The notes beneath the pieces are model-generated. The model worked only from the letters and a program-made list of their open reading frames with translations, was not told the origin of the DNA and made no database searches. Below, in pieces: positions 6,195-13,296 of a DNA stretch of 64,000 bases (the first letter of the stretch is position 1; every line of letters begins with the position of its first letter). The translations under genes were made by a program, and so were the position numbers. The DNA is from Mytilus galloprovincialis (lineage: Eukaryota; Mollusca; Bivalvia; Mytilida; Mytilidae): the NCBI RefSeq assembly GCF_965363235.1, contig NC_134841.1:34749440-34813439 (forward strand), written 5' to 3'.

Positions 6195-6897
6195 TAAAAA
6201 CTGGGTAGTATTACATAAATTTGTTTAAACTAAAAGGTAGGCTGGCATGTGTTATAACGCAAAATTAACTAGAAAATATTTGTTGAATAATGTTTTTCAA
6301 TAGATGTAGGTTTGGTATATGCTTTTGTGAGGTTTACTTTGGTTGTACCTAAGAATAAAGCTGGTAAAGGGTTTGTTTCAGTGTTAGCAAGAAATAGAAA
6401 AGATGACTTTAATTTAAATATTATCAAGGAAATAAGATGGTATAAAACTTACAGGGATTTTAGGCCAAGAGGCAGGTTGCTGAGGGATTTATCTAGGATT
6501 AGTATAGCCTAGTGTGAGGTGTGCCTTATATTTTGCAGGATGTAGGCTAATGTGAGAGTAACTTCAGTTTTAGAAAGAAGGTAGAAGGTAGGCAAAGATT
6601 AACAATATTTCTAGTCAGAAAGTATGCTAGCATTTTATTATAATTTAGCTAGATGGTACAGTATCGGCAGGTGATAATGTATTCTACGTTGTATTATGAG
6701 ATACAAATGAGGCTATCAGATGTAGATTGATGAAAGATTTTTGGCTGGTGAGAATATACATTAACTATAGTGATTAAGTATGCTGGTATATGATTTCTCT
6801 TTATTAGTTTTAACCAAAAGGCAGTAAGATTTAAATTTTGGTTCTTATTGATCAGGTATGATGGTGTGAGGTTAACCTTAATCAAAGCAAAAACATA

Positions 6898-7071
6898 CAC
6901 TGTAACCTGTCTAATCCAACACACTGGGGTCCAGAAAAGAATGTCGGATTAAGCAGGGCGTCAGAATAATCAGGTTTTTCTGAAAGGATAGGTATATTTT
7001 GGGACCATAAAATGTGTCGGTTAAAGCAGGGTGTTGGAATACTCAGGTGTCAGATTAGGCAAGTTACACTG
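6898..7071. mobile_element. 174-bp inverted-repeat element (MITE), CACTGTAAC ends
   Basis: Left end CACTGTAACCTGTCTAATCC and right end AGATTAGGCAAGTTACACTG are inverted complements with few mismatches. TA flanks both sides (6,896-6,897 and 7,072-7,073), fitting a TA target duplication. It lies inside the decayed exon-5 array. Confidence 0.8.
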
Positions 7072-7530
7072 TAGTACTTTAATCAGTTCTAGCTAGAAGA
7101 TAGTATGATTAGTGACTTTACGAAAGGACAGCTAGTTGTTAGGATTGTATAGTTCTAAATTAGTTTGAAGGGAGGATGGTATGAGATTTACCATATTTTT
7201 GTAACAGAAGTAGGCCACTATGAGATCTGCCATCGTTTTTGCTTTTTAACTGAGAGGTAGAGTGTTGAAAGATTTAACTTTGGTTAAGCTAGGAGGTAGG
7301 CAGATATTTGATGTACCTTATTTTAGCTAGGGGGTAGGATAGCAAATAAGTTATCATAGTTTATTACCAGTTAGGCTGATGTGAAAGATACCTTAGTTTT
7401 AGCTAGGAGGTAGAGCAAGTTTTACCTTTGGTTAAGCTAGGTGGTAGAGGAAGTTTTACCTTTGGTTAAGCTAGGAGGTAGAGGAAGTTTTAACCTTTGG
7501 TTTAGCTATGAGGTAGGTTGCTGTAAGATG

Positions 7531-7733
7531 TACTGTAAACCAACTTATTTTCCCGACTTTCACAAGTAGAAAAATAAGTGAAAATAGATCGTCGCTTATA
7601 TGCAAAACTCAGATCTTTTACTATTAAACCACCCCGATAAGTTAGAAAATCACAAAATTAAATAGCCGTAAAGTGGACTACAACAGGTCAAATGTGAAAT
7701 ATAGTATCCGCAAAAATAAGTTGGTTTACAGTA
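7531..7733. mobile_element. 203-bp inverted-repeat element (MITE), TACTGTAAACC ends
   Basis: The ends TACTGTAAACCAACTTATTT and AAATAAGTTGGTTTACAGTA are complementary. The TACTGTAAA tip is shared with the 2,331 and 10,810 elements, suggesting the same transposase group. It sits 77 bases past the HLCS exon 5 donor. Confidence 0.85.
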
Positions 7734-7809
7734 CCTGAATTTAAGCTTGGAGGTAGGATAGCGAATGTGTTACCATAGTTTACTAGCAGAAAGATAAACT
7801 GAAATTTAC

Positions 7810-7989
7810 CTTAGTTTTAGTTAAGAGGTAGGCTTGTGTAAATATAGGTGTCTGGTCTCTATCACAATTATATCCCATTCTCTTCAGTAAAGACGACAAC
7901 ATCTCTAATCTGACTGAATTAGATTCCTTCAGAACGTTAAACATCTCTACAGTAGCAGCTATATCAGTGGGATCTTGGTCTAGTAAAAC
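7810..7989 (-). CDS. HLCS: Holocarboxylase synthetase, coding exon 5
   Basis: The exon is 180 bases (60 codons), phase 0 at both ends, with acceptor ATATTTTTAG|GTTTTA and donor CTAAG|GTAAAT. It encodes MFNVLKESNSVRLEMLSSLL, then a block with GYNCDRDQTP and AYLL. This aligns with the human HLCS linker ([20 protein letters not shown]...) and its PLYLL end. It joins exon 4 across a 4.5-kb intron and exon 6 across a 2.6-kb intron, both in phase. Its 3' end and donor have decayed tandem copies in the following intron. Confidence 0.92.
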
Positions 7990-7999
7990 CTAAAAATAT

Positions 8000-10809: not shown

Positions 10810-11004
10810 TACTATAAATTCATAAATTATTGCACTGTTTTTATTATTGCCAAAAATGTGACAGGGTTAAAATTCCAATTATTAAAACTTGCATTTTTTA
10901 AATTTTATAAATCAATTAAACAGGATTTTTCTCAATATCACAAAAATTAAAATTACATTTTAGTCTAAAATGACAAAATCGCAATAATTTGAGAATTTAC
11001 AGTA
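10810..11004. mobile_element. Short inverted-repeat element (MITE), sister of 2,331-2,539
   Basis: Left end TACTATAAATTCATAAATTA and right end AATTTGAGAATTTACAGTA form imperfect inverted repeats, with TTATTATTGC inside as in the sister copy. Its right tip runs without a gap into the 61-bp array, whose units carry a similar TACTGTAA/TTACAGTA tip. Confidence 0.75.
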
Positions 11005-12520
11005 CATGTATACTGTAACTAAAACAAACCTGTGATAGTATAGCTCTCCCCTGACCCTTACAGTACATGTATACTGTTACTAAAACAAACCTGTGACAGT
11101 ATAGCTCTTCCTTGACCCTTACATTACATGTATACTGTAACTAAAACAAACCTGTGACAGTATAGCTCTCCCCTGACCCTTACAGTACATGTATACAGTA
11201 ACTAAAACAAACCTGTGACAGTATAGCTCTTCCTTGACCCTTACAGTACATGTATACTGTTACTAAAACAAACCTGTGACAGTATAGCTCTCCCTTGACC
11301 CTTACAGTACATGTATACAGTAACTAAAACAAACCTGTGACAGTATAGCTCTCCCCTGACCCTTACAGTACATGTATACTGTTACTAAAACAAACCTGTG
11401 ACAGTATAGCTCTTCCTTGACCCTTACAGTACATGTATACAGTAACTAAAACAAACCTGTGACAGTATAGCTCTCCCTTGACCCTTACAGTACATGTATA
11501 CTGTTACTAAAACAAACCTGTGACAGTATAGCTCTCCCTTGACCCTTACAGTACATGTATACAGTAACTAAAACAAACCTGTGACAGTATAGCTCTCCCT
11601 TGACCCTTACATTACATGTATACAGTAACTAAAACAAACCTGTGACAGTATAGCTCTCCCCTGACCCTTACAGTACATGTATACAGTAACTAAAACAAAC
11701 CTGTGACAGTATAGCTCTCCCTTGACCCTTACAGTACATGTATACTGTAACTAAAACAAACCTGTGACAGTATAGCTCTCCCTTGACCCTTACAGTACAT
11801 GTATACTGTTACTAAAACAAACCTGTGACAGTATAGCTCTCCCCTGACCCTTACAGTACATGTATACTGTTACTAAAACAAACCTGTGACAGTATAGCTC
11901 TCCCTTGACCCTTACAGTACATGTATACAGTTACTAAAACAAACCTGTGATAGTATAGCTCTTCCTTGACCCTTACATTACATGTATACTGTAACTAAAA
12001 CAAACCTGTGACAGTATAGCTCTTCCTTGACCCTTACATCACATGTATACTGTAACTAAAACAAACCTGTGACAGTATAGCTCTCCCTTGACCCTTACAT
12101 TACATGTATACAGTAACTAAAACAAACCTGTGACAGTATAGCTCTCCCCTGACCCTTACAGTACATGTATACAGTAACTAAAACAAACCTGTGATAGTAT
12201 AGCTCTCCCTTGACCCTTACAGTACATGTATACAGTAACTAAAACAAACCTGTGACAGTATAGCTCTTCCTTGACCCTTACATTACATGTATACTGTAAC
12301 TAAAACAAACCTGTGACAGTATAGCTCTTCCTTGACCCTTACATTACATGTATACTGTAACTAAAACAAACATGTGACAGTATAGCTCTCCCTTGACCCT
12401 TACATTACATGTATACAGTAACTAAAACAAACCTGTGACAGTATAGCTCTCCCCTGACCCTTACAGTACATGTATACAGTAACTAAAACAAACCTGTGAT
12501 AGTATAGCTCTTCCTTGACC
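11005..12520 (-). repeat. 61-bp tandem array, ~25 copies, carrying HLCS exon 4 end and splice donor
   Basis: About 25 head-to-tail copies with a 61-bp period. Read on the minus strand, each unit is 27 bases equal to the last nine codons of HLCS exon 4 (GQGRAILSQ), the donor CAG|GTTTGT, and 34 bases containing the near-palindrome TTACAGTA...TACTGTAA. The unit nearest the gene is the real exon end. The far end abuts a short inverted-repeat element at 11,004. Variation in the 27-base part falls almost wholly at third codon positions (CAA/CAG, GGA/GGG, CTG/CTA). One copy near 12,371 has CAG changed to CAT, which damages the donor. This is a minisatellite, not CRISPR: there are no unique spacers. 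Confidence 0.95.
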
Positions 12521-13296
12521 CTCAGCCTTTGGTTTGATGTCAACAATCATAGCTTGCCCATCTTTATCTTGACATAGGGACTGAATACACATCAAATCTT
12601 TTACAGATTCCTGAGGCAAATAACAATAGCGCCCACATAATAGCGTAACCTTCTTCCATTTCTCATAATCTACGACAGAAATATCAGGATGAGTACGAAG
12701 TTCTCTTCTTGGCACAAAATCAGAATCTAATGAACTTCCAAAGCTTATTACTTTACCGCCCTGCTCAATAAACTGGAGAAAAGCAGCATCTACTCTGTCA
12801 TACAAATTGTCACATGATACAACAAGTAAAGCGCAGTTATCTGCCCATGGAATTGAGGCCACCTGGTCATGTTTCAAATGATACAGGATGTAGCAGTCTG
12901 TATTTATACATTGTTCAAATACTGATTTAATATTTTGAAATTTTCTTGCTGAGTCTTTCTTTCCAGCATACACTAATACATTTGGGGGTTTGGATGTATG
13001 ACTTTGGTCGGGAGGAATAAAAACAGCTGGCATGGGGATCATTTCACTTAACGCTTCGCCATAACCACTCTCTCCCATCATCCTTTGCAAATCATCTTCA
13101 TTTGTTGCTATAGAGTCAACTTCATCATTGTCAGCCCCATCTAAAACCTCTTCCATGTTACCAACACTTCTTGATGATGCCATTGATTCGTTTGAACATC
13201 TTCCAACCTCTGTAGCCTCATCAAAATTATTCATCATACTACATTCCTCATCAGTTTTCTGTACCAAGTTACTGGCATGGCCTTCTACATCTATAC
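12494..13296 (-). CDS. HLCS: Holocarboxylase synthetase, coding exon 4 (BPL N-terminal domain)
   Basis: The exon is 803 bases with acceptor ATATTTCAG|GTATAG and donor CACAG|GTTTGT, ending in phase 0. After an acidic, low-complexity start it carries the glutamine-amidotransferase-like BPL N-terminal domain. Recognisable blocks are PPNVLVYAGKK, TDCYILYHL, PWADNCALLVV and QGGKVISFGSS, all close to human HLCS as I recall it. The exon closes with GRAILSQ, matching the human segment just before QVHLEL. Its last 27 bases and donor are the founder of the 61-bp tandem array that starts at once in the following intron. Reading through the donor meets a stop after about ten codons. Confidence 0.93.

Follow-up and report, generated by a model that had tools for sequence, protein, structure and literature searches.

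A splice-donor minisatellite behind an exon of the presumed HLCS gene of Mytilus galloprovincialis, with further arrays at splice junctions of the same genome

In a window of 64,000 nucleotides from Mytilus galloprovincialis (contig NC_134841.1, positions 34,749,440 to 34,813,439), the end of an exon of a gene that we take to be HLCS is repeated, together with its splice donor and the start of the intron, in 25 head-to-tail units of 61 bp. We interpret this array, with a probability of about 0.62, as a minisatellite seeded on the exon-intron junction, of the kind represented by the human CBS VNTR and tolerated because of its position; it would be nearly neutral, and any loss of HLCS mRNA would be modest and depend on array length. 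This interpretation draws on the anatomy of the unit, the stop contained in each unit, the seamless ends of the array, its single place in a genome search, a decayed second array in the next intron and arrays found in control genes. Most probably, the copies arose as by-products of genome instability and are tolerated, and similar arrays at the splice sites of other genes may represent a recurring way of multiplying splice sites.

Results

The HLCS exons and the 25-unit array

Coordinates are those of the window, and exon borders are our reading of frame and splice signals.

12494-13296, minus strand: HLCS exon (exon 4 of the original prediction), with an open frame at 13399-12461, acceptor AG at 13298-13297 and Pfam BPL_N; its last 28 nt are array unit 1
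12492-12493, minus strand: natural donor GT of this exon (unit 1), with 24 more GTs at 61-bp steps
10997-12521, minus strand: splice-donor array, 25 x 61 bp, the unit consisting of 28 nt of exon end, 27 nt of intron and a 6-nt MITE tip
7810-7989, minus strand: next HLCS exon, an open frame of 60 codons with phase 0 at both ends, an acceptor TTTTTAG ending at 7990 and a donor AAG|GTAAAT

The exon at 13296-12494 matches Pfam BPL_N with an E value of 3.1e-05 (23.4 bits, slightly below the 24.2 cut-off), and BPL_LplA_LipB, the catalytic domain, is matched above the cut-off (E 7.6e-08) by an exon that lies 42 kb further downstream on this strand. The gene name, the exon numbering and the resemblance to human HLCS are presumed here, in part following the original prediction. 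Both exons listed above join in phase 0 (...LSQ|VLLDQ...); the one at 7989-7810 has no Pfam match of its own that counts.

TRF, run on the window, delimited the array as 61 bp x 25.0 at 10997-12522 with 95% matches and 0% indels, and division of the minus strand gave 25 units from 12521 down to 10997 with zero indels. The array had been placed at 11005-12520 by the original prediction; its existence is confirmed by both procedures, but its ends move by a few bases, to 10997-12521. The unit split also bears out the claim that every unit carries the exon end and a donor, giving 25 near-identical donors. The exonic part of the unit equals the last 28 nt of the exon and encodes GQGRAILSQ, the remaining 33 nt being intronic; the division into 27 exonic and 34 intronic bases proposed earlier is the same unit as 28 + 33, cut one base later.

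The GT is intact in all 25 units, and the donor reads CAG|GTTTGT in 24 of them, unit 3 having CAT|GTTTGT. Beyond the donor, the read-through frame continues as V-C-F-S-[YN]-[CS]-I-H-V-[LM] and then runs into TAA in 25/25 units, as expected from the claim that an in-frame stop lies behind distal donors. Both ends of the array are seamless: the exon continues into unit 1, which extends upstream into 775 nt of open exon, and unit 25 passes likewise into the adjoining MITE. With a unit that spans exon end, donor and intron start, and with head-to-tail copies contiguous with the real exon, the array has the structure of an exon-intron-boundary minisatellite. Comparison of a 242-base array query with the 1.385-Gb genome, in a search that skips very common words, gave one candidate place at first look, and all 25 matches were located there rather than at several places, as copies of a dispersed satellite family would be.

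A MITE tip in the unit and the probable origin of the array

10812-11002, minus strand: MITE-like element of 191 bp abutting the array, with terminal inverted repeats identical at 19/22 positions and TA on both sides

A genome search with this element gave at least 44 matches, its own place included (40 scored of 2359 first-look candidates). In an alignment with 19 other copies, the flanks of most turn unlike just before TACTGTAAATTC, and CTGTAAATTC is exact in 16 of these 19 loci; TA flanks were checked by script for the copy at 10812-11002 and by eye in the alignment for the other 19. The element is thus a MITE by its short length, terminal inverted repeats, TA flanks and many dispersed copies with unlike flanks, and its TA target presumably points to a Tc1/mariner-like transposase.

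The outer six bases of the MITE, CTGTAA, are the last six bases of the array unit (in 17 units; ATGTAA in 8). It follows that the MITE already sat in the intron, 27 bp downstream of the donor, when duplication began, that the array is younger than this insertion, and that the in-frame TAA stop derives from the MITE. The tip in the unit also gives a relative date for the origin of the array and illustrates how an array can take up part of an element inserted close to a donor.

The ends of the element show that a TA-flanked MITE first inserted 27 bp downstream of the donor. The next step, shown by the sequence, was a tandem duplication of the segment running from the last 28 exonic bases via the donor to the first six MITE bases; the resulting unit join, GTAA|GGG, has at most one base (A) in common with the exon side. 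This duplication perhaps occurred at a break or stall near TTACAGTA/TACTGTAA, an 8-bp inverted repeat to which the MITE tip gave rise. The later increase to 25 units would be due to duplication of blocks and to exchange among units, as suggested by the likeness of units five apart and by reassorted variants.

Variation among the units

The array comprises 16 distinct unit types with a mean pairwise divergence of 4.4%. Among 12 lags tested, likeness between units exceeds that of shuffled arrangements only at lag 5 (P = 0.0018); at lag 2 it is not above chance (P = 0.51), so that no dimer pattern was found. All four combinations were observed in 12 of 15 pairs of variable sites in a four-gamete test. 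The lag-5 likeness and the four-gamete pairs fit block duplication as well as exchange or conversion between units.

Eight of the 61 unit columns are variable. The exonic ones among them (columns 7, 10, 22 and 28) are all third codon positions, for which the chance probability is 0.007, and they comprise three synonymous changes and one non-synonymous change (CAG to CAT, in unit 3). The original prediction had stressed that variation in the exonic part is almost only synonymous. This holds for three of the four sites, but its strength does not: the chance of at least three of four is 0.05-0.08, only four sites are involved, and a comparable array in a myosin gene (see below) shows four changes of each kind. 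The synonymous pattern is therefore marginal and a hint of function at most. If the real exon end takes part in concerted exchange, the variants spread by it would likewise be mostly synonymous, and part of the third-position pattern may thus have arisen without function.

Donors and the expected fate of transcripts

Splice sites were scored with a weight matrix that is a poor guide in this genome, where it puts two real HLCS acceptors no higher than ranks 109 and 127. By this matrix, the natural donor, CAG|GTTTGT, comes 36th among 709 GTs, which is not a strong score. As an additional observation, MITE tip and exon piece together create a donor-like GTAAGG at 24 unit joins (window 11058-12521), scoring 1.5 to 2.9 by the same matrix vs 1.6 for the natural donor.

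As the copies lie on the intron side, use of the exon-proximal donor would still give normal mRNA. A distal donor would add an in-frame TAA within eleven codons, and such mRNA would probably be removed by nonsense-mediated decay. In HLCS and in the myosin gene alike, the TAA that closes unit 1 would be included whichever distal donor is used. The array is expected to be nearly neutral because exon-proximal splicing gives normal mRNA and distal-donor mRNAs, carrying a stop, should decay.

Folding was considered as an explanation and dismissed at two levels: as RNA, the exon end with units 1 and 2 is no more stably folded than shuffled sequence (z +1.24), and as DNA a single unit gives z -0.70.

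A second, older array in the next intron

6200-7840, minus strand: decayed array from the end and donor of the 7989-7810 exon, taking up a large part of the following intron; outer limit approximate

The 7989-7810 exon ends ...CTAAAACTAAG|GTAAAT, and its last 27 bases together with 12 intronic bases recur through the following intron. In this intron the 39-base query of exon tail and donor has 20 matches (score at least 22) with a summed score of 590, a sum reached by 0/400 random 39-mers; seven of these 400, which were unfiltered picks that could fall in the intron itself, have a single best match of at least 48. Across 119 other segments the same query averages 1.9 matches, and the single outlier (19 matches, sum 418) is the opposite strand of the first HLCS array. 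Dinucleotide shuffles of the intron (n = 100) give at most 14 matches vs 26 observed, one of which is the donor itself. When the query is slid along the exon, likeness begins near the exon tail and hardly earlier.

TRF detects only the best stretch of this array (7389-7516, 34 bp x 3.7). A 351-base piece of it matched, besides itself, only 7831-7731, that is the exon tail plus first intron bases (78% over 101 bases, E 9e-13), and genome searches with pieces of the array found none elsewhere. Judged by its sequence, the array at 6200-7840 is older than the 25-unit array and decayed in comparison. The same process would have struck the next HLCS intron earlier, as well as other genes of this genome.

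Junction arrays in control genes

Control stretches contained exons of two multi-exon families taken from Pfam match lists. Stretches L063-L065 were picked regardless of repeats; L067 and L068 were on the first pick list, L067 then being taken as a paralogue of the array-bearing myosin gene, and L066 was added to complete that array, both choices postdating its discovery.

C10:38843698-38844596 (L066:1199 to L063:597): myosin array, 60 bp x 15 (TRF), with 51 exonic and 9 intronic bases per unit
L065:6137-6426: acceptor-type array of an SLC6-type gene, 58 bp x 5, with nearly identical copies
L065:2150-2221: decayed acceptor-type copy, exon starting GLGYAMVIVSW at 2271; score 84 vs at most 34 in 200 shuffles
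L068:1007-1276, minus strand: array in another SLC6-type gene (Pfam SNF), 42 bp x 6.2, ending about 32 bases before the acceptor of the GYSKFADN exon

The myosin array follows an exon with a Pfam Myosin_head match that ends ASVLHNLRARYSNSLIY|GTAAGT; the neighbouring myosin paralogue in L067 has no such array. Three myosin copies (units 4, 9 and 11) have lost the GT, and units 1-13 show four synonymous and four non-synonymous changes, which together argue against a general constraint on intronic copies. In L065, the exon starting GGIYLLNIVDF is preceded by four extra copies of intron end plus exon start, and the far flank of the L068 array carries a copy of the acceptor of the GYSKFADN exon (score 46 vs at most 32 in 200 shuffles). 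No TRF array of this size was found in L064 or L067. All junction arrays observed have their copies on the intron side and leave the complete exon with a site of its own.

Counts at and away from junctions

In the 42,805 bases of control loci L063-L068, three of the five TRF arrays (period at least 20, copies at least 3, score at least 100) lie at a splice junction, one at a donor and two at acceptors. By a hand estimate, about 28 exons (a rough count) provide 56 junctions which, at 60 bp each in 42.8 kb, cover about 8%; the probability of at least three of five would then be about 0.004, a post hoc figure from a small sample.

Two scans point the other way. In the first, which covered 14 exon ends of L063-L065, no end had more than three downstream matches, the best summed score being 96 vs 1784 and 436 for the two HLCS exons; the control arrays found later belong to exons or acceptor sides outside these 14 ends. 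A position-wise scan showed no excess, a score of 80 being reached at 5/58 junctions vs 22/300 random positions. The 58 include two exons (four junctions) added because of the arrays that TRF had shown there, as well as the ends of HLCS exons 4 and 5, which were known beforehand; the fifth scoring junction, the GLGYAM exon start, was listed from the outset, its decayed copies having already been seen by eye, so that all five were noticed before the scan. Because 13 of the 22 scoring random positions lie in or at the edge of junction-born arrays (nine in L063, four in the HLCS exon-4 array), the position-wise comparison is blunt.

Within 104 kb around HLCS, two of 12 arrays are junction-born by exon homology, both of them in HLCS. 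The largest non-junction array by copies in these 104 kb, 53 bp x 15, adjoins no exon in frames read by eye. This minisatellite (L031, window coordinates -23108 to -22332, C4:34726331-34727107) belongs to the same gene region, some 33 kb past the first array, and its unit also contains a TACTGTA-like palindrome. Minisatellites number 17 in 146,805 bases of gene regions and five in 60,524 bases around MITE copies, a density at which many junction arrays are expected by chance alone.

Discussion

Minisatellites spanning exon-intron boundaries are already known as a kind. Those that multiply splice sites are known from a few human genes and affect splicing there; here, one invertebrate gene has two, of different ages, and more occur, at donors and acceptors, in control genes whose selection took no account of repeats. 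A minisatellite described by Turri in 1995 reportedly provides, according to its title, several splice donors to a transcript; its units, said to measure 12 bp, carry a splice donor as the HLCS units do. The closest likeness in structure is with the human CBS gene, where the 31-bp VNTR c.1444_1467+7(16_21) occurs in 16-21 copies and varies among people (PMC2630376); the division of its unit into 24 exonic and 7 intronic nt is our reading of the variant name. The CBS VNTR and the HLCS array share units made of last exonic bases plus intron start, a metabolic enzyme as host gene, many donors in a row and single-base differences between units. They differ in that the CBS unit has 31 bp (24 + 7) and the HLCS unit 61 bp (28 + 33), and the excerpted CBS description names no transposon tip (PMC2630376). 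CBS also harbours 844ins68, which duplicates an intron-exon junction and in which the exon-proximal copy is favoured ("exon-proximal" being our reading of "more distal"). Like the HLCS array it is a tandem duplication of a splice junction, and it is tolerated as splicing drops the extra copy, but it consists of one 68-bp duplication and forms no array (PMC2630376).

Other described cases are more distant. In human segmental duplications, variable internal tandem repeats at exon-intron boundaries alter splicing, and 27 intron modifications were counted (PMC2812944); those repeats belong to recent primate duplicates and lie within exons or form new introns, whereas the HLCS copies are on the intron side. 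In minisatellites derived from transposable elements (PMC3389668), the array contains part of an element, as in HLCS, but the HLCS unit has only the outer six bases of its element, all other bases coming from exon and intron. Splice-site sequence is likewise multiplied when introns are gained by tandem genomic duplication (PMC3443670). There, however, an AGGT-bearing exonic segment is duplicated to give a new intron, whereas in HLCS the donor and the intron that receives its copies were both present beforehand; the HLCS copies lie between two exons and not in a former exon, so that the array does not represent intron gain of this type. Intronic minisatellites described from earthworm metallothionein genes (PMC12783039) and from C. 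elegans (PMC4039745) have other arrangements. Among the listed Mytilus and bivalve papers, drawn mainly from open-access literature, titles and abstract openings contained no report of splice-junction minisatellites in mussels. New are the HLCS member of this kind, the MITE tip in its unit, the older array in the following intron, and the finding that such arrays recur in control genes of the same genome, at donors as well as at acceptors.

The tolerance reading assumes that only donor 1 of HLCS is used. Against a neutral array count the GT kept in all 25 HLCS units and the four exonic variants that all fall at third positions (chance 0.007), and two junction arrays in neighbouring introns of one gene are more than a simple by-product model predicts; most exon ends, in addition, show no such array. 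A possible, if doubtful, alternative is a splicing switch: donors might compete for U1 so that some transcripts use distal donors and are lost via the TAA, array length thereby setting HLCS output. Since the CBS VNTR has the same anatomy and is reportedly linked, by the title of a 2001 study from Lievers, with reduced CBS activity, such an effect of array length would be a fair hypothesis. A length-dependent switch of this kind would accord with the CBS-like anatomy c.1444_1467+7(16_21) (PMC2630376), with the TAA behind each of the 25 donors, and with a natural donor that is not strong (rank 36 of 709) beside 24 joins with a comparable GTAAGG, by the matrix used above; the three myosin units without GT speak against it, as if those donors were irrelevant.

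The remaining explanations are far less probable. An expansion error of the assembly is very unlikely: repeats are error-prone in assemblies, but the 1.5-kb array lies within a 104.9-Mb contig and has 16 distinct unit types, and a decayed second array cannot arise as an artefact of this kind. The original prediction had also proposed that units could be spliced in as nine-codon exons lengthening the protein. The geometry for this is present, with an AG before 27 nt, a GT after them and the frame preserved, but the acceptor GTAAG|G has no polypyrimidine tract and scores -4.7 or lower (rank 298-417 among 660 AGs by the same matrix, which places two real HLCS acceptors only at 109 and 127), and adjacent units leave 34 nt between them, less than a usual intron needs; an in-frame micro-exon array is thus highly improbable. 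A dispersed satellite that landed here and happened to supply the exon end is more improbable still, as the MITE adjoining the array contributes only six of 61 bases, unit 1 runs into 775 nt of open exon, and the array occupies a single genomic place in a search skipping very common words.

The recurrence of splice-junction arrays in this genome is an observation; that splice junctions are preferred birthplaces of minisatellites here is a tentative proposal. If they were, thousands of donors and acceptors, a number obtained by extrapolation, might be multiplied on the intron side in young and decayed form, as a genome-wide, fast-changing reservoir of decoy sites that could tune expression gene by gene; HLCS, with arrays of unlike age in successive introns, would be one case. 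Should this apply genome-wide, bivalve genomes would provide numerous natural experiments on spliceosomal choice between adjacent sites of identical sequence, and on whether the output of a gene is set by array length.

Apart from these arrays, tandem clusters of near-identical protein-kinase matches were noted at C1:45763305-45812657 (17 matches) and C3:92336287-92352768 (10 matches).
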